NCBI RefSeq assembly: GCF_000233455.1 | Contig: NZ_JH376420.1 | Location: 520,176-584,175 of the forward strand | From: [Clostridium] citroniae WAL-17108 | GTDB taxonomy: Bacteria > Bacillota > Clostridia > Lachnospirales > Lachnospiraceae | Direction of reading: 5' to 3' | Length of the DNA: 64,000 nt | Shown: piece after piece, positions 2,260-55,478 of the stretch | Layout of the letters: the number at the start of each line of letters is the position of its first letter | How positions within the stretch are numbered: position 1 is the first letter of the stretch | Made by a program: the position numbers and the translations under genes | Notes under the pieces: model-generated | The model's input: the letters and a program-made list of their open reading frames with translations, nothing else | Databases searched by the model: none | What the model was told of the DNA's origin: nothing

Positions 2260-4350
2260 TCATGATCTGTCCTCACAATTTACCGCCTCCCTGATCCTCT
2301 GATTCATAAGTTCAGCCAGATCCCTCCCATGCTCCATCTTCCTGATTGCTTCCACTTCCTCCTGACAATCCAGCAGGTCCAGGAACACACTGTAAAACTT
2401 AATGGTTTCCTCCTTCATCCCGGCAGCCTCATCCAGATTAAATGCCAATAGGAAGATCACATCCGCATCCACATCCTCCTGCCACCTGACCGGCTGCTTT
2501 AAAACAGCCACTGCCACGGTGGGGCGGATCACATATTTGGCGTATCCATGGGGAATGGCCACTCCCTCCCCCAGTGCTGTGGGCGCTGTGACTTCGTGCT
2601 CCAGCACGGACCTCTCAAACCCATCCGTTACATATCCGGCATCTGTAAGCTGTTTACAGAGAACCTTTATCAGCTGTCCTTTGTCTTCTGCTTCCATCTG
2701 CAGGTGTATAAACTCTTCATAAAACAGGTTTTTCTGTATGCAAAGCTGGTTACAGGGCTGTTTTGTCTTCAGTTTTCTCCGCCTGACCTGCTTCATCTTA
2801 TTTTCTACATTCCTGACGTCATACTGAGTCATGAGATGGTCCACCACCACTACCTCTCTCCCAAAGTAAGGGCTTTTGATCTGTACGGTTGTAATGATCA
2901 GGTCGCAGGGAATACTGCCGACTTTTTTCAGATCCCTGACAGAGAGCACGTCCGCAATCCTGATATCACTGACGGTCCGTTCCAGCTGCTCCCGCAAAAG
3001 CTGGGATATGCCGATCCCGTAATCGCAGACCACACAAGCTGTCACAGCAGACAGGCTCCGCTCAATGGCTCCCCCAAGAAGCAGGGCCAGGCTGCACATT
3101 TCATGTTCATTCAGCTCCAGGTTTAATTCTTTTTCAAAATAAACCCCCACCGCGTAGATGGCTGCAAATATATTGGGGTATTTCTGCTTTACCTGTTTTA
3201 AAAGGGGATTTACAGTCTTTACATTGTATCTGAGCCTGGCGATCATGGAGCGCAGCTGAAGGAACAGGCCTTCGGAAAAGAACAGATCAGGCCTGAGATC
3301 CACATTCACAATATCGCTTACCAGGGAGATCAGCCGTATACTGAAATAACACAATTCCATATGATCCGCCTGGCACTCCAGCATCCGGTCCATGTCCTGA
3401 AAATTCTGTATATCCGAGATATCGATGATAAATTCAATAAACTCCTGTTCGCAGGGCGGAAGCTTGATCCTGTATCCGCGCTCCAGGGCCTCAATCAGCC
3501 TTCCCTTGATCCGGGCGGAAAACCTGCCCTCCACCTTGCACCGTTGCGGCTTTGGCATGGTCACAAACTGCTTTTTCCTGGACCTGACAATGCACAGTGA
3601 CAGCAAAAAGAACATTTGGATATGTGCCTCATATGCAAAGGAGAAGCCGTAATACTCTTCCAGGGAATAAATTTCCTTATTGATCCCGCTGGTGTCAAAG
3701 CCCTTGAGGAAATCTTCAATTAATATGTATTCCCCCGATTGTCCGGCTCCCTGTCCCCTGTTAAACAGTTCTTTCCTGCTCTTTCGCTTCATCATCAGGA
3801 ACAGGTTCCACATGGCCATACGCCACTGGTATTCCCCGTATTCGATCTGAAACCCCTTTCCCCGCTTTTTTTCAAACAGGATTCCAAATCCCCCAAACCA
3901 GTTCTGCAGTTCGGGTATCAGCCTCTCCACCGATGAGCGGCCCGTATACAATTCCTTTTGTATTTCTCCCAGTCCCAGGCTTCCCCTGGTTAAAAGAAAA
4001 TATATGATCTGGCTTTTGACATCCAGCTGGTCCGTAACAGGGCTCCTGTCCTCCAGCAGCCGCTTCAGCTTTTCCCAGTCCCTGTCCTCCACCAAAAGCC
4101 GGACCCCCTCATGGGGCTTTTTTTCTAACCGTCCAAGATTCTCCTGCTCTATCGCCTCCTGTATCACGATCAACTCATTGCGTATTGTTTTTACAGACAC
4201 CTGAATCACACCGGAGATATCCGAGACAGTCACAAATCCGTCCTGCTCGTGAAGATAATATAAGATATCCATCTGTCTGCTGGTCACATATATCTTCTCC
4301 TTTCTCCCATGAATTCTCTGTTTCATATCCACATTATAGCAGTCTGCCAT
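2260..4350 (-). CDS. PRD-containing transcriptional regulator with EIIB-like and EIIA domains (MtlR/LicR type)
   Basis: The start was set at 4350 because GGAGG precedes this ATG, whereas the ATG at 4365 has no ribosome site. The protein is 696 residues. An N-terminal helix-turn-helix covers roughly residues 20-65. Two PTS regulation domains span about 190-400. An EIIB-like domain carries a Cys near 442 (CVVCDYGIG), and a C-terminal EIIA domain has His601 in EGVAIPHGY. Such proteins activate PTS operons, and their activity is set by HPr and EII phosphorylation. The second PRD has FLQLRSMIARL where a His is common. It heads the operon it probably controls. It is an activator rather than a BglG-type antiterminator, judging by the DNA-binding N-terminus. 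Confidence 0.88.
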   Translation of the reverse strand: MADCYNVDMKQRIHGRKEKIYVTSRQMDILYYLHEQDGFVTVSDISGVIQVSVKTIRNELIVIQEAIEQENLGRLEKKPHEGVRLLVEDRDWEKLKRLLEDRSPVTDQLDVKSQIIYFLLTRGSLGLGEIQKELYTGRSSVERLIPELQNWFGGFGILFEKKRGKGFQIEYGEYQWRMAMWNLFLMMKRKSRKELFNRGQGAGQSGEYILIEDFLKGFDTSGINKEIYSLEEYYGFSFAYEAHIQMFFLLSLCIVRSRKKQFVTMPKPQRCKVEGRFSARIKGRLIEALERGYRIKLPPCEQEFIEFIIDISDIQNFQDMDRMLECQADHMELCYFSIRLISLVSDIVNVDLRPDLFFSEGLFLQLRSMIARLRYNVKTVNPLLKQVKQKYPNIFAAIYAVGVYFEKELNLELNEHEMCSLALLLGGAIERSLSAVTACVVCDYGIGISQLLREQLERTVSDIRIADVLSVRDLKKVGSIPCDLIITTVQIKSPYFGREVVVVDHLMTQYDVRNVENKMKQVRRRKLKTKQPCNQLCIQKNLFYEEFIHLQMEAEDKGQLIKVLCKQLTDAGYVTDGFERSVLEHEVTAPTALGEGVAIPHGYAKYVIRPTVAVAVLKQPVRWQEDVDADVIFLLAFNLDEAAGMKEETIKFYSVFLDLLDCQEEVEAIRKMEHGRDLAELMNQRIREAVNCEDRS

Positions 4351-6773: not shown

Positions 6774-6852
6774 TTTCTCTTCCTTCTTTCTAAATATCCG
6801 GACCCCTGTTCCGACCGGCGGAAACAGGGCATGATTAAAACCTATCAATTGA

Positions 6853-6883
6853 CTATTGTGGCACAATAGCCGCCTAAAGTCAA
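6853..6883 (-). promoter_or_regulatory. promoter with perfect dyad over the -10, upstream of the CobW operon
   Basis: A -35 TTGACT (6883-6878) and a -10 CACAAT (6860-6855) are separated by 17 bp. A perfect 8-1-8 dyad, CTATTGTGGCACAATAG (6853-6869), covers the -10. This layout is typical of a repressor operator. The motif does not match the Zur, Fur or NikR sites I know, so the regulator is unnamed. Confidence 0.6.
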
Positions 6884-6923
6884 GACATCTTGTGATGAAT
6901 CATTCTCACAAACAGGGCCTGCG

Positions 6924-6964
6924 CACAACAAAAGAAGACAGGCGGGGTGCGTTCCCCGCCTGTC
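6924..6964 (-). terminator. terminator after the diaminopentanoate dehydrogenase-like gene
   Basis: An 11-bp perfect stem pairs 6937-6947 with 6954-6964 across a 6-base loop. On the minus strand it is followed by TTCTTTTGTTGT. It lies about 45 bases after the stop codon at 7009. Confidence 0.75.
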
Positions 6965-7008
6965 CAGACAGACTGATCCGTTCAATATCTTAAGGAGGAT
7001 TCCTTTGA

Positions 7009-8049
7009 TCAGAAATCCAGATACATGTGCATCGGGTAGGACAGATACTCCACGTCCTCCAGCTTTTCAACGGTGATATATCCGGCCGGCGCATTGAGAA
7101 TGGTAGGAATACGGTTTACAACCGTGGCGCAGGTGTGCTCCACAGTGGCCGGTTTCTTCACAAAGAATGTGGTCTCCGGCTCCCCTATGATCTTCCAGTC
7201 GCACAGGTCGCCGTCATCCGGCCCATATACCTTTCCGATACACTGTGTCTCAATCACAGGTCCCTGGAAGGTCTCGGTGGTTACCACTGCGCTCATACCA
7301 ATACAGTTGCCCTTTGGAATGGTGTATCCCATGGTCTCGGAATAAAGATCCGTGGGGTAAAAATAGGGTACACATTTCTGGGTCTGGGATTTAATGGTCC
7401 ATCCCATCTTGTTGCACAGGGCTTCATTGGAGTTCCACACATAGCAGGGCTCCAGCGTCTCCGGATGGGCAATCTTTGCCTCAAACTCCTCCGGTGTCAG
7501 ACCCACTCCATGGGCCTCTGCCAATGCCAGTCCGTAATCCTCCACATTGTAGCTGGTAGCGCCCTCAATCCGGTCAATGCGGTGCACGCCCCCGGCCACA
7601 CAACCGATCATGTTGATCCAATATATATCCTGCATACCTGCGCCCACGATGGTGCAGTTATTTTCTTTTGCCAGCTTATCCAGTTTGTTTGTGATGGAGG
7701 ATGCCGTGGTCCATGGATAGATCGCCTCCTCACAGGTGGTTACCACATTGATGCCCCTGGATACACATTTTTCAAAATGGGGATATACATCCTCCATGAA
7801 GCTGAACAGGGTTACCACTGCAATGTCGGCATCACACTCATCCAGGACCGCATCCGCATCATCACGGATGGTCACTCCCAGCTTGCATCCAATGCCCGCA
7901 AAATCCCCCACGTCCATTCCCACCACAGCGGGATTCACGTCAATTGCCCCTACGATCTCAGCCCCTTTTTCATACAGATAGCGCAGGATATATTTTGCCA
8001 TCTTTCCACAGCCATACTGTACCACACGGATTTTTTCGCAATTCATCAT
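7009..8049 (-). CDS. 2,4-diaminopentanoate dehydrogenase-like NAD(P)-dependent oxidoreductase
   Basis: A 346-residue protein starting [20 protein letters not shown], a Rossmann fold with the dihydrodipicolinate-reductase-type N-terminal domain. Length and pattern match 2,4-diaminopentanoate dehydrogenase (Ord) of ornithine fermentation and its relatives. Ord oxidatively deaminates 2,4-diaminopentanoate to 2-amino-4-ketopentanoate. None of the other ornithine-pathway genes (oraS/oraE, ortA/ortB) are in the window, so the substrate may differ. AAAGGGG precedes the start. The gene has its own MerR-type promoter and lies just downstream of a MerR regulator gene, which probably controls it. Confidence 0.65.
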
Positions 8050-8123
8050 GATATTTGACCCCTTTCCTGTATCTTAGCTCTCATTGCCCTCAAAGTACAA
8101 GGGCATCAATAGTTTCTGCCATT

Positions 8124-8154
8124 ATTATAAGGCTTATACAAGGTATGGAGTCAA
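8124..8154 (-). promoter_or_regulatory. MerR-type promoter with 19-bp spacer
   Basis: TTGACT (8154-8149) and TATAAT (8129-8124) are separated by 19 bp, the over-long spacer typical of promoters activated by MerR regulators. The spacer contains CTTGTATAAG, an imperfect dyad. It lies between the MerR gene stop and the dehydrogenase start. Confidence 0.7.
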
Positions 8155-8163
8155 TAGTGGTTT

Positions 8164-9006
8164 TTATACGTCTTTTGCCCTCAGGGATACAGGCACCTGA
8201 AGCCGCAGGAACATCCCCCGCTCCTGCATATCCATGGGCACCTCCGCCACCACCTCGCAGATATAGTCCCCTGTGATCCGGTATTCCCTGGTTCGTATTT
8301 CCTCAAGAAGCCGCTCTATATAATCCTTCTCCTTGTCAAAACTGTTGCAGTAAATGCACAGATACGTGCTGGCCGGTATCTGGGTTATGAGACTTTCCTT
8401 TACAAATCCCTTATCCACCAGAACAAAGATTTCCGTGGAGCAGAACCGGCCGGCTAACAGGGCTTCTTTTTTCATCACAGTGCCTGCATTATAAAAGTAA
8501 ATGGGGGACAGCTGGTTGGCGATCAGGTTCTTTTTCAGCTCCCTGAGTATTTTCTCATACACGTCAATCCCATAATCATAGAAGTTTACTCCGGAATCTG
8601 TCATGTAGGTCAGCCTGCGGGGAATATATTCCAGCACAATGGTGCCGTCCGGAGGGGCATTTTCATACCACTCATAGCTCTCCAGGGTGCGCTCGATGGC
8701 CCTTCTCCGGTACATCAGTTCCTGAGCCTTCTGGTCAATGGCATCCAGATTCCGGTACAGGATATTCCTCAGCATATCCGGGTCAAAATGCTTCATCTGC
8801 TCCCTGATATCCTTAAGGGACATGCCCAGGGCTTTCATGTGCTGGATCATGTCCAACTGGGCGCTCTGGCGGATATCGTAATAGCGGTATCCATTCTCCC
8901 TGTCCCGGTACATGGGTGAAAACAGCCCCACCTTGTCGTAAAGCCGCAATGCCTGTTCCGACACTCCGTTCAGCCTGGCCATCTGTCCTATTGACAGTTC
9001 TTTCAC
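8164..9006 (-). CDS. MerR family transcriptional regulator with effector-binding C-terminus
   Basis: The start is taken as GTG at 9006, since GGAGAGG lies at good spacing and the protein then begins with the MerR consensus (KELSIGQMARLNGVSEQALR, then LYDKVGLF). It is 280 residues. The winged-helix DNA-binding domain occupies about 1-70, followed by a dimerisation helix to about 120. The ~160-residue C-terminal part looks like a GyrI/BmrR-type small-molecule-binding domain. Its gene ends 10 bp before a promoter with a 19-bp spacer driving the dehydrogenase, so local activation is likely. Its own promoter carries an inverted repeat. Confidence 0.87.
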   Translation of the reverse strand: MKELSIGQMARLNGVSEQALRLYDKVGLFSPMYRDRENGYRYYDIRQSAQLDMIQHMKALGMSLKDIREQMKHFDPDMLRNILYRNLDAIDQKAQELMYRRRAIERTLESYEWYENAPPDGTIVLEYIPRRLTYMTDSGVNFYDYGIDVYEKILRELKKNLIANQLSPIYFYNAGTVMKKEALLAGRFCSTEIFVLVDKGFVKESLITQIPASTYLCIYCNSFDKEKDYIERLLEEIRTREYRITGDYICEVVAEVPMDMQERGMFLRLQVPVSLRAKDV

Positions 9007-16898: not shown

Positions 16899-17012
16899 TC
16901 TCAGACTCCTTTTTTTCCATTATCCGGATCATTGTAACCCATGGACCGCCAAATGGGAATTAATTTTCTGTATATATTATGCCGGAAGCCGCGTTCTTAT
17001 TGCAGAAGGGCA

Positions 17013-17054
17013 AAAAAACTCCCCGCCGTGAAACAGACACAGGCGGGGAAATTT
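17013..17054 (-). terminator. terminator downstream of the small Cys protein gene
   Basis: An 8-bp stem pairs 17020-17027 with 17042-17049. On the minus strand it is followed by GTTTTTTTG, and on the plus strand by an AATTTTAT stretch. It would end transcripts from the small gene at 17182-17412. Confidence 0.7.
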
Positions 17055-17072
17055 TATAAGGGAATATGATTA

Positions 17073-17149
17073 TGTAGGTATATTAGTTTTGTTCGTATCT
17101 AAGTTTGTAGGTATATATAGTTTGTTGGTTTGCAGGTGTATTCGTTTAC
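17073..17149. repeat. three degenerate ~20-bp direct repeats
   Basis: Two 21-bp copies at 17073-17093 and 17106-17126 share TGTAGGTATAT and GTTTGTT-like ends. A weaker third copy (TGCAGGTGTATTCGTTTAC) lies at 17131-17149. They occupy the region just after the small Cys protein gene, before its terminator. Function unknown. Confidence 0.5.
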
Positions 17150-17181
17150 AGATACATCAGTTCCACATCAATAAGGATTGC

Positions 17182-17412
17182 TTAGAATCCCATTCCGTTG
17201 GAAAATCCGCTGCAGGAATTACCGGACGGTGCGCTGACACCCATCTGGGACAGAATGCAGTCCAGATCCTGGTTTCCGTGCTGGTAGCATACATTCTGAG
17301 GATTGTTGGATCCGTTGTAAAGCCCTGCATTATAATCATTCATGGTTGCCATATTCGTACCGCATGCAGAACCTAACATTGCGGCAACTGCCATTGTTGA
17401 AATTGGTAACAT
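17182..17412 (-). CDS. small Cys-containing protein of unknown function
   Basis: A 76-residue protein I do not recognise. GAGAGGA precedes the ATG, and it has its own promoter and terminator, so it is probably a real gene. The first 16 residues are hydrophobic (MLPISTMAVAAMLGSAC) with no positive charge, ending in a GSAC stretch that weakly resembles a lipobox. The rest is rich in Asn, Gly and Ser with Cys at 17, 42, 52 and 67. It could be a small exported or membrane-associated peptide, or an RNA-encoded regulator. A perfect dyad sits in its leader. Confidence 0.55.
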   Translation of the reverse strand: MLPISTMAVAAMLGSACGTNMATMNDYNAGLYNGSNNPQNVCYQHGNQDLDCILSQMGVSAPSGNSCSGFSNGMGF

Positions 17413-17434
17413 AGTTTGTCCTCTCTTTCTGTGC

Positions 17435-17460
17435 TTGTAATATTCTCTTGAATATTACAA
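17435..17460. promoter_or_regulatory. perfect inverted repeat in the leader of the small Cys protein gene
   Basis: TTGTAATATTC (17435-17445) and GAATATTACAA (17450-17460) are perfect complements around a 4-base TCTT centre. The element lies 23-48 nt upstream of the start codon. It could act as a protein operator or an RNA hairpin. Confidence 0.55.
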
Positions 17461-17488
17461 AAGTATTTCTTTTTTGTTACAAAACCAT

Positions 17489-17517
17489 ATTATCACATTT
17501 ATAACCATCTGTGTCAG
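17489..17517 (-). promoter_or_regulatory. candidate promoter of the small Cys protein gene
   Basis: CTGACA (17517-17512), 17 bp, then GATAAT (17494-17489) on the minus strand. Transcription from here would place the perfect dyad at 17435-17460 in the 5' leader. Confidence 0.45.
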
Positions 17518-17691
17518 GGAGTAATTGGGGACATTTCCAGAAAATGGTGACAAATTTCGCACTTCTTTACACTTTTTTAAGTTATATACATTGCGCATCG
17601 TGAATATATTTGTATTATTATGTAACCGCCGCCCTGTTTGCTGTTAAGAGGGACTTGGCAGTTAGTATTATATGACAGGGGATATTACATC

Positions 17692-18939
17692 ATGCTAAAC
17701 AATGTGAAAAAAAACATAAGTACAGCTTTTCCGCTTTTCAGATGCGAGACAACATTCAGACATGTACAGGAACTGTTTGACACGGTCCAGACCATGAACA
17801 TCAGCCAGACACTGAACTTTTCCGTTCTCCTCATTGTACTGGAACTGGTGAATCTGGTCAGTTACCTGGCCGTGGACATAAGCAGCAGGCTGATCTCACC
17901 CATCAGCATGGCCATCGTCCTGTTCCTATTGTTCATGGTAAGCAATCTGTTCTACTGTGAACATATATTCAAATTGGAGCGCAACCGGAGGACACGCCGT
18001 ATGATACAATACCATACCTATGTGTTCACCTCACTGCTTGGCTTATTCTGTCTGTTGATCAATCATTATTGCCTGAAGAGCAGGATGACTGCGGAAAGTG
18101 TGCTTATGTTCTATATCTATATTGCAGCAGGGCCCTTCTTTACGTTTACCGAGGCAGCCACCGCCGTATTCGTCACAGCGGGACTGGCTCTTCCTTCCTT
18201 TGTGACACAGCGGGCGCCGGTGGCCCTGTACTCCAACCTGTTCCTTTACAGCTTTATCAGCCTGTTCCTGTCCCAGGTCCGCTGCCGCATTATCGGAAAC
18301 AACCTGCGTATGCTGCGGGAAGCGCGTGACGAACAGGTCTACCTTCAGAGCAGGGCTGACAATGACCCCCTGACCCATATACCTAACAGAAACGGATTTG
18401 CCCTGGGCCTGGAGGCGCTGATGCCCGGGGCCATTCGGCTTCAGATCCCTGTGGCTGTCATTATGGTGGATATTGATTACTTTAAACAGTACAATGACAC
18501 ATTCGGCCACGTGGCGGGGGATGAATGCCTGAAACGGGTGGCGGATGCGCTGGCCACCCACATCCATCAGGAAAAGGATCTGATCTGCCGCTTTGGCGGA
18601 GAGGAGTTTGAGATCCTCCTGTATGGGATCAAACCGGAGGACGCCGTCCAGGTGGCGGACCGTCTCAGGTTGTCTGTAACCGACTTAAGGATCCCTTCAG
18701 CCAACCACAGCATTTCTCCCTATGTGACCATCAGTGTGGGAATATGCAGCGCCATCCCCACCTCCCTGGAAACATACCCCAATATGGTACAGGCTGCTGA
18801 TGATGAACTATATTATGCAAAAAACCACGGCAAAAATATGGTCTCCTTCCGCGAGCTGCCCCCTGAACAAAATAAGGACACGGCAGCACCTACTGTGGTC
18901 CAGTGTGCCGCCGCATCCTATGAACTGCCCCGTCTCTAA
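17692..18939 (+). CDS. membrane-anchored diguanylate cyclase (GGDEF)
   Basis: The start at 17692 has AGGGG upstream; the TTG at 17638 has no support. The protein is 415 residues. About six membrane segments fill residues 40-195, followed by a short coiled linker and a GGDEF domain (about 215-390). The active-site motif is GGEEF (302-306), and NDPLTHIPNRNGF is the usual domain start, so synthesis of cyclic di-GMP from GTP is likely. No RxxD product-inhibition site is seen five residues before GGEEF (QEKD instead). No other c-di-GMP gene is nearby. Confidence 0.88.
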   Translation: MLNNVKKNISTAFPLFRCETTFRHVQELFDTVQTMNISQTLNFSVLLIVLELVNLVSYLAVDISSRLISPISMAIVLFLLFMVSNLFYCEHIFKLERNRRTRRMIQYHTYVFTSLLGLFCLLINHYCLKSRMTAESVLMFYIYIAAGPFFTFTEAATAVFVTAGLALPSFVTQRAPVALYSNLFLYSFISLFLSQVRCRIIGNNLRMLREARDEQVYLQSRADNDPLTHIPNRNGFALGLEALMPGAIRLQIPVAVIMVDIDYFKQYNDTFGHVAGDECLKRVADALATHIHQEKDLICRFGGEEFEILLYGIKPEDAVQVADRLRLSVTDLRIPSANHSISPYVTISVGICSAIPTSLETYPNMVQAADDELYYAKNHGKNMVSFRELPPEQNKDTAAPTVVQCAAASYELPRL

Positions 18940-29976: not shown

Positions 29977-30008
29977 AAAAAAGCTCCCGTCCTTAACAGG
30001 ACGAAAGC
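29977..30008 (-). terminator. T-box regulated terminator
   Basis: An 11-bp stem with two G-U pairs joins 29983-29993 with 29998-30008 across the loop GTTA. Six T residues follow on the minus strand. It is mutually exclusive with the antiterminator containing AGGTGGTTAAACG. Confidence 0.85.
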
Positions 30009-30225
30009 CATAAAACTTCCTTCGTTTAACCACCTATTACTGCATACCATCATATGAGTTCCCTTAACGCAGGAAATGCGATCCGGCTTACCAAAGGGCG
30101 GGCGCCGCAAATATCTCGGCCGGACAGCTCCGGAGTGATCTTCAGTTCTGCGCTACTTGTACCGGGATCCCACCCTCCCCGGCTCTCTGAAACGTTCCTG
30201 CAGGCCTACTGTCTCCATCACAGCT
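29977..30225 (-). promoter_or_regulatory. T-box riboswitch (Ile specifier) of ileS
   Basis: Reading the minus strand, the leader has an AGTAG S-turn near 30206, an apical CAGAGAGCCGG...GGTGGG region, and then GAAGATCACTCCGGAG. The specifier triplet is ATC (30139-30137), an Ile codon. The antiterminator core AGGTGGTTAAACG lies at 30035-30023; its TGGT would pair with the ACCA end of tRNA-Ile. Uncharged tRNA-Ile should allow read-through into ileS. Confidence 0.88.
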
Positions 30226-30244
30226 TTTGTTATTTAACTTCTTT

Positions 30245-30273
30245 ATTATAATAATGGGCGTGAAAAATGTCAA
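30245..30273 (-). promoter_or_regulatory. consensus sigma-70-type promoter of the ileS leader
   Basis: A perfect TTGACA (30273-30268), a 17-bp spacer and a perfect TATAAT (30250-30245). It lies just upstream of the T-box leader, as expected for strong expression controlled by attenuation. Confidence 0.85.
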
Positions 30274-30374
30274 CTGAAACCGTATAACAAATAAAAATGT
30301 TATAAAACAGAAGTTTCCATCATATACTATAATATTCCCAATTCATATTTTAATCATACCGCGAGGTGCGAGTC

Positions 30375-30503
30375 ATGACGAATCAACTGCATTATCGGAT
30401 CATTTTTTCATCAATCCTGAAAAACGAACATTTTGATTTTAATTTCTCCAAAATCATATCAATAAACAGGCTGATTGATTCTTATCTAATTATCTATCTC
30501 TAA
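30375..30503 (+). CDS. possible small 42-residue protein at the edge of the AT-rich island
   Basis: An ATG at 30375 follows CGAGGTGCGAG, a fair ribosome site, and opens 42 codons (MTNQLHYRIIFSSILKNEHF...). Its stop overlaps the end of the convergent PIN-domain gene by a few bases. No family is recognised. It could be a truncated gene or chance. The surrounding 30274-30499 interval is AT-rich and otherwise shows no gene. Confidence 0.25.
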   Translation: MTNQLHYRIIFSSILKNEHFDFNFSKIISINRLIDSYLIIYL

Positions 30504-31240
30504 TGTTTAGCTTCAATAAGACTGGCTCCAATATGGTCACATATTGGTTTAAAATCTTTTTTATTAGTTGTGGCAACGTTACCATCTTCCAGCTCTAATG
30601 ATTCAATGGCAATAATACAATCTCCAAGGCTTTTACAAGCATTACCCTTAGGTATCTCATCCGAATCATTTAAACATTTTAATACTGGTAACATCTTTGC
30701 CGGAACATCTGCATGATTCTCCAGACCTCTCACAAGACTTTGATTCTTTTTCCAAAACGTTTCTATCCCGCATTGGTCATCTGTCTTTCGACACCTGATC
30801 CCATCTAATTGCATGCTCCCCTTTTCTGCTATTAAATTTGCTTTTGCCCTGGCACACTGGGTTTGATCCAATAATTCTTCATTGATACCATAATAGAAAC
30901 GAAATAAAAGCTTTTCAGGATAAATTTCCAAATATTCCTTAATCAAATCAAAATCTTTATCAAACTCCCTGGACAGGTCATTCACCAGATATAACATCCT
31001 TGTCTTAGATCTGTTACTATATACATCTGCGATCTTTTGATATACTTCAGTCAAATTTTCTTCAATCTGCATGATACTATACAAAGTCACAAAATCATTT
31101 ATTACATTTGCTTTAAACTCACCTAAAACATAAGATGAACAATAGCAGTCATTTGCACGAAGAAAAGCTTCTATCTGCGCTTTTTCAACTGGTTTGAATA
31201 TCCTGTTTATCTGAATTGTTGTGTCCAATAATACATTCAT
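30500..31240 (-). CDS. PIN-domain-like protein of an AT-rich three-gene island
   Basis: A 246-residue protein with PIN-like acidic positions: D6 in NVLLDTT, E41 in YVLGEF, D207 in LGDCIIAIESLE and TTNKKDF at 225-230. PIN domains are Mg-dependent RNases, often toxins. It is longer than usual (about 130-150), because a helical insert of about 100 residues with Cys129, Cys150 and Cys157 separates the halves. Its ribosome site overlaps the stop of the preceding gene (3-bp gap). It is the third gene of a tightly packed operon whose base composition is far more AT-rich than the neighbours, which suggests horizontal transfer. Exact function unknown. Confidence 0.6.
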   Translation of the reverse strand: MNVLLDTTIQINRIFKPVEKAQIEAFLRANDCYCSSYVLGEFKANVINDFVTLYSIMQIEENLTEVYQKIADVYSNRSKTRMLYLVNDLSREFDKDFDLIKEYLEIYPEKLLFRFYYGINEELLDQTQCARAKANLIAEKGSMQLDGIRCRKTDDQCGIETFWKKNQSLVRGLENHADVPAKMLPVLKCLNDSDEIPKGNACKSLGDCIIAIESLELEDGNVATTNKKDFKPICDHIGASLIEAKH

Positions 31241-31243
31241 AAA

Positions 31244-31873
31244 TTACTCCCAGGCAGGAAAAACTTCTATCCCGCAATTGTATAACTCTTTATCATATTG
31301 ATAATACTGTTGTTTAGAGATATACCTGTCTTCACATTTTTTTACCATTCTAGTAATAACAGCGATCTGTTCTGCTGTAAATAGCCCCTTAGAATAATTC
31401 CTTTTAATTGCCTCATGCAGCAACAAAAGCAGCTGCCTTTTATAATTATCTTTTTCTTTTGGTATCACTTTTAATAAACTACGTACTTCACCAACAATTT
31501 TAGCTGCACATTGTACCTGGAAATGAATATCATCATTATCAATTAATTCCTCAACTACCTGCTTAAGCAAACCTGACTTTGATTCTAATTTATTTTCCTT
31601 GAGTTCTATATTCCAAAACATCGAACTCTTTAACAGGTCATTTTTAATCTGTTGGTTCATATTGAAGTCAGACATAGGCTGATTTTCAGGAATATACACA
31701 TATTTAGCTTTGTTTAATTTTGCAGCAATTTCATCCAAACCCAATTCCAAATTACTAATTCTGGTATCCTGTTCCTGTATTTTCAACTGCATAATTGTAT
31801 TATACAACTGATTCTGAAGACCAGAGTATTCCATATCAACTGATTCATCATATTTCAGCAATTTTTGCGGCAT
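31244..31873 (-). CDS. uncharacterised coiled-coil protein, middle gene of the AT-rich island
   Basis: A 209-residue protein of no family I recognise. GAAGGTGA precedes the ATG. Residues 20-60 look like a coiled coil (LQNQLYNTIMQLKIQEQDTR and following), and the rest is mostly helical with charged segments. The last part has KKCEDRYISKQQYYQYDKEL. It starts 11 bp after the stop of the preceding gene and ends 3 bp before the PIN-like gene, so the three are probably co-translated. It could be a partner or inhibitor of the PIN protein; that is only an inference from the layout. Confidence 0.55.
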   Translation of the reverse strand: MPQKLLKYDESVDMEYSGLQNQLYNTIMQLKIQEQDTRISNLELGLDEIAAKLNKAKYVYIPENQPMSDFNMNQQIKNDLLKSSMFWNIELKENKLESKSGLLKQVVEELIDNDDIHFQVQCAAKIVGEVRSLLKVIPKEKDNYKRQLLLLLHEAIKRNYSKGLFTAEQIAVITRMVKKCEDRYISKQQYYQYDKELYNCGIEVFPAWE

Positions 31874-31884
31874 GTAATCACCTT

Positions 31885-32550
31885 CTATAATTTTTCTTGT
31901 ATTCTTTTCAATTCATCAATCAGATATTCAAGATCATATTTATCACAAATAAATGATATTTCCTCCGAACGATTCGATGATATGATATTCATCAATTGTT
32001 TTGGTAAATTTATATCCACAAGTACATCATCTGTCTTTATTTTTATATTGGCATAGGCAACACTGCCGTCTTCATCTATAGTTCTATTAAAATCATAATC
32101 AATATCGGATAATTTATGGCTGATTGTGTTTTGTTTTAGAAAATATCTGTTTTTTTCTTTTTGACTGTATAATTTTTGGTACGCATACCTTCTCTTTTCC
32201 AACTTGAATTCACTAATACTTTTTATACTGTCCTCATCAACTTTTTCTTCTATTAAATATTTAATTAATCCCTTTTCAACTTCCAGTGGTTCATTATAAT
32301 TCTGCTCCAAAATGGTCAATATCTCCGATTTCAATATATCATTGTAATCCGTCCAGCTCAGTTCAGTATATTTCTCCTCATATTCTCTTTCCGTAAGTAA
32401 AAACTTGATCGTAATATCTCTCATAAATCCATATACAATTATTATTTTGTCTTCGTCTAATAATTCCTTCGTATAATCAATCGCAATTTTAAACAAATCT
32501 AGATCACTGTCAAATCTAAATCCCACCGGAAATTCATAATTTTTGCCCAT
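31885..32550 (-). CDS. uncharacterised protein, first gene of the AT-rich island
   Basis: The start at 32550 (MGKNYEFPVGFRFDSDLDLF) is supported by GAGGTGAGG; the upstream ATG at 32586 has no clear site. It is 221 residues, acidic, and belongs to no family I recognise. The N-terminal third looks alpha/beta. The middle is charged and helical (FKLEKRRYAYQKLYSQKEKN), and the C-terminus is acidic-helical (CDKYDLEYLIDELKRIQEKL). It heads the operon with the coiled-coil and PIN-like genes. No clear promoter was found in the AT-rich upstream region. Confidence 0.55.
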   Translation of the reverse strand: MGKNYEFPVGFRFDSDLDLFKIAIDYTKELLDEDKIIIVYGFMRDITIKFLLTEREYEEKYTELSWTDYNDILKSEILTILEQNYNEPLEVEKGLIKYLIEEKVDEDSIKSISEFKLEKRRYAYQKLYSQKEKNRYFLKQNTISHKLSDIDYDFNRTIDEDGSVAYANIKIKTDDVLVDINLPKQLMNIISSNRSEEISFICDKYDLEYLIDELKRIQEKL

Positions 32551-32850
32551 AATCCTCACCTCACATTGGTTGAACAGATACTCCATTAACTCGATTATAA
32601 AACATTCTTTAATATACGTCTAGATTAATCTTTTTACATTCCGCCAAAACCATTCTCATCCTCTCTTCTCTATTATAACAGAAATTAATTTTTGTTCATA
32701 ATTTTTTTACTCATTCGTTTATCCTGATTCCACATAATTCATAAGGGGATCCGGTATAGTTTTTACCGTACTGCAAAAACTAAAACCAGGCGCGCATATG
32801 GGTGAAATAATCATCCCGCGGTGCTAAAATGCAATACAGGAGGTAACGTC

Positions 32851-33051
32851 ATGGCAAAAGCAGGTATGAGAAGGCCTGATCCTTATGATCCCAAAAATCA
32901 CGGCACGGAAAATCACCAGAACATGCATCACCCGGAAAACAAACAGGCCCAGGTTCCTGAGATACAGGGTGCGGCTAAAAACGGGAACGCCAAGGCCGGC
33001 CCGATCAATGCCCCCAACTGGGCCAGGGAGGATTACAAAACCGGAAACTGA
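32851..33051 (+). CDS. small hydrophilic protein of unknown function
   Basis: A 66-residue protein with an excellent ribosome site (CAGGAGGTAACGTC before the ATG) and a perfect terminator directly after it. This makes it a real stand-alone gene. It is rich in Pro, Asn, His and Lys with no hydrophobic segment (MAKAGMRRPDPYDPKNHGTE), and is probably disordered. I do not recognise a family. It resembles small basic proteins seen in related gut clostridia, but that is an impression only. Confidence 0.65.
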   Translation: MAKAGMRRPDPYDPKNHGTENHQNMHHPENKQAQVPEIQGAAKNGNAKAGPINAPNWAREDYKTGN

Positions 33052-33057
33052 TCTGAG

Positions 33058-33087
33058 AGCAGGGAGATCCATTCCCTGCTTTTATTT
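33058..33087 (+). terminator. terminator of the small hydrophilic protein gene
   Basis: AGCAGGGA (33058-33065) pairs perfectly with TCCCTGCT (33073-33080) across a 7-base loop, followed by TTTATTTT. Confidence 0.85.
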
Positions 33088-33116
33088 TATAGATTGTTAA
33101 GAATTTAACATTTCAT

Positions 33117-33144
33117 TTGCCTTTTGTAAAATTTGTGCTATACT
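33117..33144 (+). promoter_or_regulatory. promoter of pncB
   Basis: TTGCCT (33117-33122), a 16-bp spacer and TATACT (33139-33144), about 90 bp before the pncB start. Confidence 0.55.
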
Positions 33145-33234
33145 ACTAACCAACATACAAGCGCAGCCGCCAAAATCCAGCCGGACCGCACCAAATGCGG
33201 ACAGCTCCCGGCCACGCACCAGGGAGGAACCTAT

Positions 33235-55245: not shown

Positions 55246-55340
55246 CGGAGGTGGTGGGAATCGAACCCACCCGTGAAGCTCTTAACTCCACACAACGGTT
55301 TTGAAGACCGCGGGGCGCACCAGCTACCCAGCTCCCTCCC
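55246..55340 (-). tRNA. selC: tRNA-Sec, copy 1
   Basis: On the minus strand it begins GGGAGGGAGC and ends CCACCTCCG. The anticodon loop is CTTCAAA with anticodon TCA (55304-55302), matching the UGA selenocysteine codon. The long variable arm and the GGTTCGATTCC T-loop fit tRNA-Sec. The length of about 95 nt is normal. No CCA is encoded. Confidence 0.93.
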
Positions 55341-55382: not shown

Positions 55383-55478
55383 CGGAGATGGTGGGAATCG
55401 AACCCACCCGTGAAGCTCCTAACCCCACACAACGGTTTTGAAGACCGCGGGGCGCACCAGCTGCCCAACTCTCTCCCT
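55383..55478 (-). tRNA. selC: tRNA-Sec, copy 2
   Basis: It lies 137 bp upstream of copy 1 on the same strand, with the same anticodon TCA in CTTCAAA. It differs at a few positions: the acceptor G-C of copy 1 is A-T here (a compensated change), and the D-arm and variable-arm bases also vary. The compensated change suggests both are functional. Confidence 0.92.

Follow-up and report, generated by a model that had tools for sequence, protein, structure and literature searches.

An AT-rich three-gene cassette encoding a putative split PIN nuclease, inserted between ileS and pncB in [Clostridium] citroniae WAL-17108

In VapBC modules the VapC toxin is accompanied by one small antitoxin, VapB. The VapC toxins are also where PIN ribonucleases have been best characterized, according to the DefensePredictor report (PMC13092281). 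As described there, DS-3 is a one-protein phage-defence system that works without an antitoxin, has its PIN domain split between its two ends and loses phage defence when its catalytic residues are mutated, while DS-5 consists of two proteins, a PIN ribonuclease and a partner, needed for defence, that carries DUF5830 and an AcrIF4-like domain, and is likely not a toxin–antitoxin system (PMC13092281). We analysed a 64 000-nucleotide stretch of [Clostridium] citroniae WAL-17108 (contig NZ_JH376420.1, positions 520 176–584 175; referred to below as the window) and describe in it a cassette of three genes, the last of which encodes a candidate split PIN nuclease. The cassette would be a new version of the PIN-ribonuclease toxin/defence theme, and its two partner families are without a match in the libraries searched. 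Its features, in window coordinates, are as follows.

31885–32550, minus strand: gene 1, 221 residues, acidic (isoelectric point 4.7), no known family
31244–31873, minus strand: gene 2, 209 residues, no known family
30500–31240, minus strand: gene 3, 246 residues, predicted split PIN-like nuclease
32594–32622, minus strand: possible promoter of the trio, TAGACG-17-TATAAT, by consensus match only (the region contains 23 matches of this kind, where shuffles average 13.9)

Gene 3 resembles the VapC toxins (PF01850) in its N-terminal hhLDT, its middle E and its C-terminal GD-x-(I/V)-I...N-x2-DF, and in a collinear match to a PIN profile. It differs from them in having 110–120 extra residues in the middle and four invariant cysteines, and in falling below the Pfam cutoff; unlike VapBC, the trio has two unrelated partners of about 200 residues (221 and 209 here) rather than one small antitoxin. 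The likeness to DS-3 would lie in the split PIN domain, but DS-3 is a single protein without a partner, whereas the three genes here are linked in all five loci known to us. The pairing of a probable PIN ribonuclease with partners recalls DS-5; unlike DS-5, neither gene 1 nor gene 2 has a DUF5830 match.

The trio spans 30500–32550 in a host genome of 6.65 Mb, with gaps of 11 bp between genes 1 and 2 and 3 bp between genes 2 and 3. A GAAGG sequence overlaps the stop of gene 1 by one base and GGAG directly adjoins the stop of gene 2; an alternative start for gene 1 at 32586 would give 233 residues. The G+C content of the trio is 31.9%, whereas the window outside 30001–33200 has 51.9%. A 1 kb profile drops to 0.297 at 31501–32500; the closest intervals that the drop does not touch stand at 0.501 and 0.525. 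The initial annotation, made from the sequence without searches, had described an island at 30375–32550 of three close-packed minus-strand genes with these gaps and a stop-overlapping ribosome site, far more AT-rich than all its neighbours. The gene calls and the base composition agree with that description, and the trio lies within its coordinates, but the DNA absent from related genomes is longer, extending over approximately 30275–33091.

The first relative was found in a scan of 84 980 species genomes with gene 3 as the query: a Roseburia metagenome-assembled genome (G1115, locus L002) with 39% identity in gene 3. Profile searches recovered this genome and added three others (G778, G1127 and G1364). 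All five loci carrying gene 3 (the window and four other genomes) contain the complete trio, with gene order and orientation unchanged, at the following positions relative to each locus outside the window.

L002: gene 1, 6849–7394; gene 2, 7384–7998; gene 3, 8001–8756
L003: gene 1, 2956–3603; gene 2, 2246–2800; gene 3, 1492–2241
L061: gene 1, 257–910; gene 2, 910–1494; gene 3, 1498–2229
L062: gene 1, 2609–3295; gene 2, 2039–2608; gene 3, 1333–2037

The genes are separated by a few bases or overlap in all loci, except for genes 1 and 2, which are 11 bp apart here and 155 bp apart in L003; the start of gene 1 was read shorter in L002 than elsewhere. The gene 3 homologues are 36–46% identical to that of the window, with lengths of 234–251 residues. 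Gene 3 matched 1/98, 1/391, 2/397, 2/299 (one dismissed) and 4/285 (one dismissed) genomes in successive sets, which overlap: the first four include the window's own genome and the last includes that of L002. Two weak matches were attributed to chance, one in a frame with three internal stops (G1091) and one inside a 471-residue protein (G1157) that we take to resemble Wadjet JetA. A joined profile of genes 1 and 2, run against 397 genomes of the window's family, found only the two gene 3-bearing genomes and one weak match (G756), also a chance one, inside an apparent ribonucleotide reductase beta subunit. Genes 1 and 2 thus accompany gene 3 in 5/5 loci and were not found apart in the 397 genomes, which is the co-occurrence that the initial annotation had proposed to look for. 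The trio is a linked unit, rare and conserved. It is AT-rich in all five loci (trio/surroundings, 31.9/51.9, 31.3/42.0, 31.9/40.3, 30.0/47.1 and 38.2/51.3% G+C), and the five loci occupy five different genomic sites, a pattern consistent with a compact cassette that has arrived horizontally more than once.

In the window the three-gene block is an insertion between ileS and pncB, because these two genes nearly adjoin in five of the 16 congeners.

30275–33091, approximate, no strand assigned: DNA absent from the junction in five congeners, from comparison of the junctions

In these five genomes the ileS-side and pncB-side matches are only 21–101 bp apart (21 bp in G005/L009, 101 bp in G010/L010, 48 bp in G015/L011, 55 bp in G002/L013 and 82 bp in G007/L016), compared with ∼2.8 kb (30275–33091) here. 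DNA of the pncB region has matches in every one of the genus's 17 genomes, this one among them, although in G012 only a 76-residue open reading frame is matched. Four congeners carry other DNA at the junction: 0.76 kb in G001, ∼1.5 and ∼1.6 kb with a membrane protein in G011 and G006, respectively, and 6.8 kb in G008, where visual inspection suggests a MarR/ABC-exporter operon. The site is therefore variable across the genus, with 21–101 bp in five genomes and 0.76–6.8 kb of other DNA in four. In G014 ileS was not located within ∼14 kb, and the comparison omits G003, G004, G009, G012, G013 and G016, for which the fetched contigs or flanks did not span the junction. No defence gene was seen among the other inserts, which were read by eye only, and gene 3 matched none of the 16 congeners, several of which are represented by incomplete genomes.

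The relationship of gene 3 to PIN domains was examined with a profile of eight single-domain PIN proteins (open frames of 136–167 residues), chosen from the 30 loci that PF01850 recovered when run against 79 genomes of the class; 'VapC-type' is the label given to them in this analysis. The first three gene 3 proteins scored 20.3, 16.2 and 16.1 bits against this profile, compared with 14.3 bits for the best of 9000 shuffles, and all other members of a set of 282 comparison reading frames that includes these three scored lower. The profile matches gene 3 in two collinear pieces, an N-terminal one of 48–75 residues and a C-terminal one ending at 233–236, with an insert of about 110–120 residues beyond the profile between the two halves. 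When all five homologues were tested with 4000 new shuffles each, they ranked 1, 3, 4, 11 and 15 of 20 005. An hhalign comparison with three gene 3 sequences returned two collinear pieces at 70% and 20%, while genes 1 and 2, used as controls, gave 0.4% or less; the longer, YacL-type PIN proteins were rejected as the nearest kind, with 3% against 70% for the single-domain type. Residues Asp6, Glu41, Asp207 and Asp229 are invariant in the five homologues at positions that fit the PIN profile. Gene 3 is likely, although not proven, to be homologous to PIN domains. Three of these acidic residues (Asp6, Glu41 and Asp207) had been named in the initial annotation, and its estimate of a ∼100-residue helical insert is close to the length given by the profile; Asp229 is additional to them.

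Four cysteines of gene 3 (Cys129, Cys150, Cys157 and Cys202) also belong to the 43 columns that are invariant in 5/5. When as many cysteines were placed at random, none of 20 000 trials produced a column shared by all, although this null takes no account of common descent. The first three lie within the insert and Cys202 lies just before the LGD motif. From this invariant pattern, the four probably bind zinc or an iron–sulfur cluster, which would connect the insert with the active site.

Genes 1 and 2 were assigned to no family in the libraries searched, as the initial annotation had stated for the partner genes. Sequence searches of Pfam, PADLOC and PDB with the proteins of the trio and their profiles returned only sub-threshold matches of unrelated kinds, as did searches of NCBIfam and PHROGs with the six proteins of the window and L002; neither gene showed a recognized antitoxin or DNA-binding domain in the sequence searches. 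PADLOC-DB 2023 gave no family for the three proteins of the window and, for ten of the 12 homologous proteins, no more than two weak matches (E values of 0.017 and 0.051), for which gene 2 of L061 was the query in each case. A COMM domain (PF07258) was considered for the C-terminus of gene 1 and rejected, scoring 11.5 bits in one of three genomes against a cutoff of 22.4, with five of 14 control genomes also matching at the same loose threshold. No relation between gene 3 and gene 2 was seen. Conserved positions are present in both partners: Phe200, Cys202, Asp203, Asp206, Ile211, Leu214, Ile217 and Lys220 near the C-terminus of gene 1, and Asp115, Ile116, Gln119 and Gln169 in gene 2, are invariant in 5/5. 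Among the papers listed by literature searches, none was seen to describe such a trio.

The surroundings differ between loci. The window's trio lies between ileS and pncB, that of G1127 beside pyrG and an NYN-like gene, that of G1364 beside secDF and galK, and that of G778 beside a response regulator and a DUF2339 protein; the names pyrG, secDF, galK, ileS, pncB and NYN were read from translations and not from a search. L002 has an AbiEii gene (Pfam E value of 6 × 10^−13) and a helix–turn–helix gene upstream of the trio, and 3.3 kb downstream an AAA ATPase of the AbiL/Ptu-like kind, with AbiLi as its best PADLOC match (E value of 1.8 × 10^−20). The AbiE likeness is limited to this adjoining gene: the trio itself has no AbiE match, and none was recognized at the other four loci, which were mostly inspected by eye. 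The initial annotation had compared the layout to a defence or toxin–antitoxin cassette; one of the five loci does lie beside defence genes, but no significant PADLOC match was obtained within the trio, and such a role is putative.

The explanation that we prefer, with about even confidence, is that the trio is a horizontally moving cassette in which a split PIN ribonuclease effector is controlled by two partners, acting as a phage-defence or toxin–antitoxin unit. The gene order, the linkage, the patchy spread and the one defence-gene neighbourhood suggest defence or addiction. Gene 3 would be a metal-dependent PIN-type ribonuclease, with residues 1 to ∼54 and ∼200–246 as its halves and the inserted domain between them. 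We infer that the products of genes 1 and 2 may hold the nuclease inactive or guide it until a signal, most likely phage infection, causes them to release or direct it; cleavage of RNA from the cell or the phage would then halt growth. A more specific form is tentative and on the unlikely side. It proposes an undescribed bacterial immune system of three components, whose split PIN ribonuclease carries a switch domain with a cysteine-ligated metal (zinc or iron–sulfur) and is gated by two new families, one a sensor and the other an inhibitor or adaptor; if correct, gating by two partners together with a metal-bound insert would be a new control scheme for PIN ribonucleases. Under the preferred explanation, three protein families left unannotated by the libraries searched would share one testable role; four of the five sites lie away from any recognized defence gene, where neighbourhood-based screens do not look.

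Several results weigh against the cassette being a PIN-based defence or addiction unit. The absence of a recognized defence gene at those four loci was judged mostly by reading open frames, supplemented by PADLOC, which gave no match for five neighbouring proteins at three loci other than L002. Phages and plasmids gave no match for genes 1, 2 or 3, and viral contigs gave none for genes 2 and 3, the genes searched there, although the viral and species-genome scans, which are seeded by short peptide patterns, may overlook more divergent relatives. With regard to the fold, the Pfam PIN model (PF01850) had no match above its cutoff in any of the five gene 3 homologues and found nothing in this genome, although ten of 14 control genomes match. 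One shuffle in the second test, at 16.3 bits, beat two of the homologues, and the two newest, at 10.9 and 10.6 bits, score no higher than the top shuffles do. A wider PIN profile ranks the five 1, 2, 10, 14 and 21, and with five gene 3 sequences the hhalign values decrease to 43% and 14%. AlphaFold models from two-row alignments had a mean predicted local distance difference test (pLDDT) score of 50 and 51, with a helix at the expected first PIN strand. The PIN-like assignment of the initial annotation is thus favoured by the profile and by the four invariant acidic residues, with the Pfam model silent and AlphaFold too poor to decide. The Pfam, AlphaFold and shuffle results could also mean that gene 3 is not a PIN protein at all, its Asp and Glu motifs being coincidental and its four cysteines marking an unrelated metal-binding protein. 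We regard this as quite improbable, since the match falls in two collinear pieces with acidic residues on PIN positions in all five homologues, whereas control genes 1 and 2 score at most 0.4%.

If gene 3 is a PIN ribonuclease, its biological setting could still differ from the one proposed. It might be a VapC-like toxin in a tripartite toxin–antitoxin unit without sensing, with one partner as the antitoxin and the other as a chaperone or repressor, kept by addiction after transfer. The toxin-type gene comes last, its partners lie directly upstream and translation signals sit at the preceding stops; the differing insertion sites, the AT-rich composition and a PIN likeness to the single-domain (VapC-type) rather than the YacL-type proteins are all in line with such a unit. 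We nevertheless find it rather doubtful because the two ∼200-residue partners lack recognized antitoxin or DNA-binding domains, the eight PIN proteins behind the profile (136–167 residues) are shorter than gene 3 (234–251 residues), no palindrome common to the five upstream regions was seen and the plasmid collection held no match. A horizontally spread accessory operon for RNA processing or regulation rather than defence, encoding a complex of three subunits, one of them a PIN protein, that matures or degrades specific host RNAs, would account for the joint inheritance of three similarly sized proteins in 5/5 loci, for three of the five sites lying beside apparent housekeeping genes (ileS/pncB, pyrG and secDF/galK) and for the lack of recognized defence genes at four. 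This is improbable given a very patchy distribution, with secure gene 3 matches in 1/98, 1/391, 2/397, 1/299 and 3/285 genomes, and given that the AT-rich composition and differing sites suggest a dispensable element.

Two further features lie at the left edge of the insertion and inside it, respectively.

30245–30273, minus strand: presumed ileS promoter, TTGACA-17-TATAAT, at the left edge of the insertion, by consensus match
32821–33051, plus strand: 76-residue open reading frame inside the insertion and not part of the trio, from the list of reading frames

The 76-residue frame belongs to no Pfam family and has DNA of 78–81% similarity in six congeners (G008, G002, G012, G005, G015 and G007). 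Because in five of the six the similar DNA sits on a contig other than that of pncB, this frame may have moved into the insertion from elsewhere. The Rfam search found only a full-length T-box leader upstream of ileS (29994–30230, minus strand), which at 69.1 bits is below the gathering score of 93. Elsewhere in the window, a second and milder drop in G+C content (0.41) occurs at 17001–18000, and two very similar tandem tRNA-Sec genes are located on the minus strand at 55246–55338 and 55383–55476, 44 bp apart.
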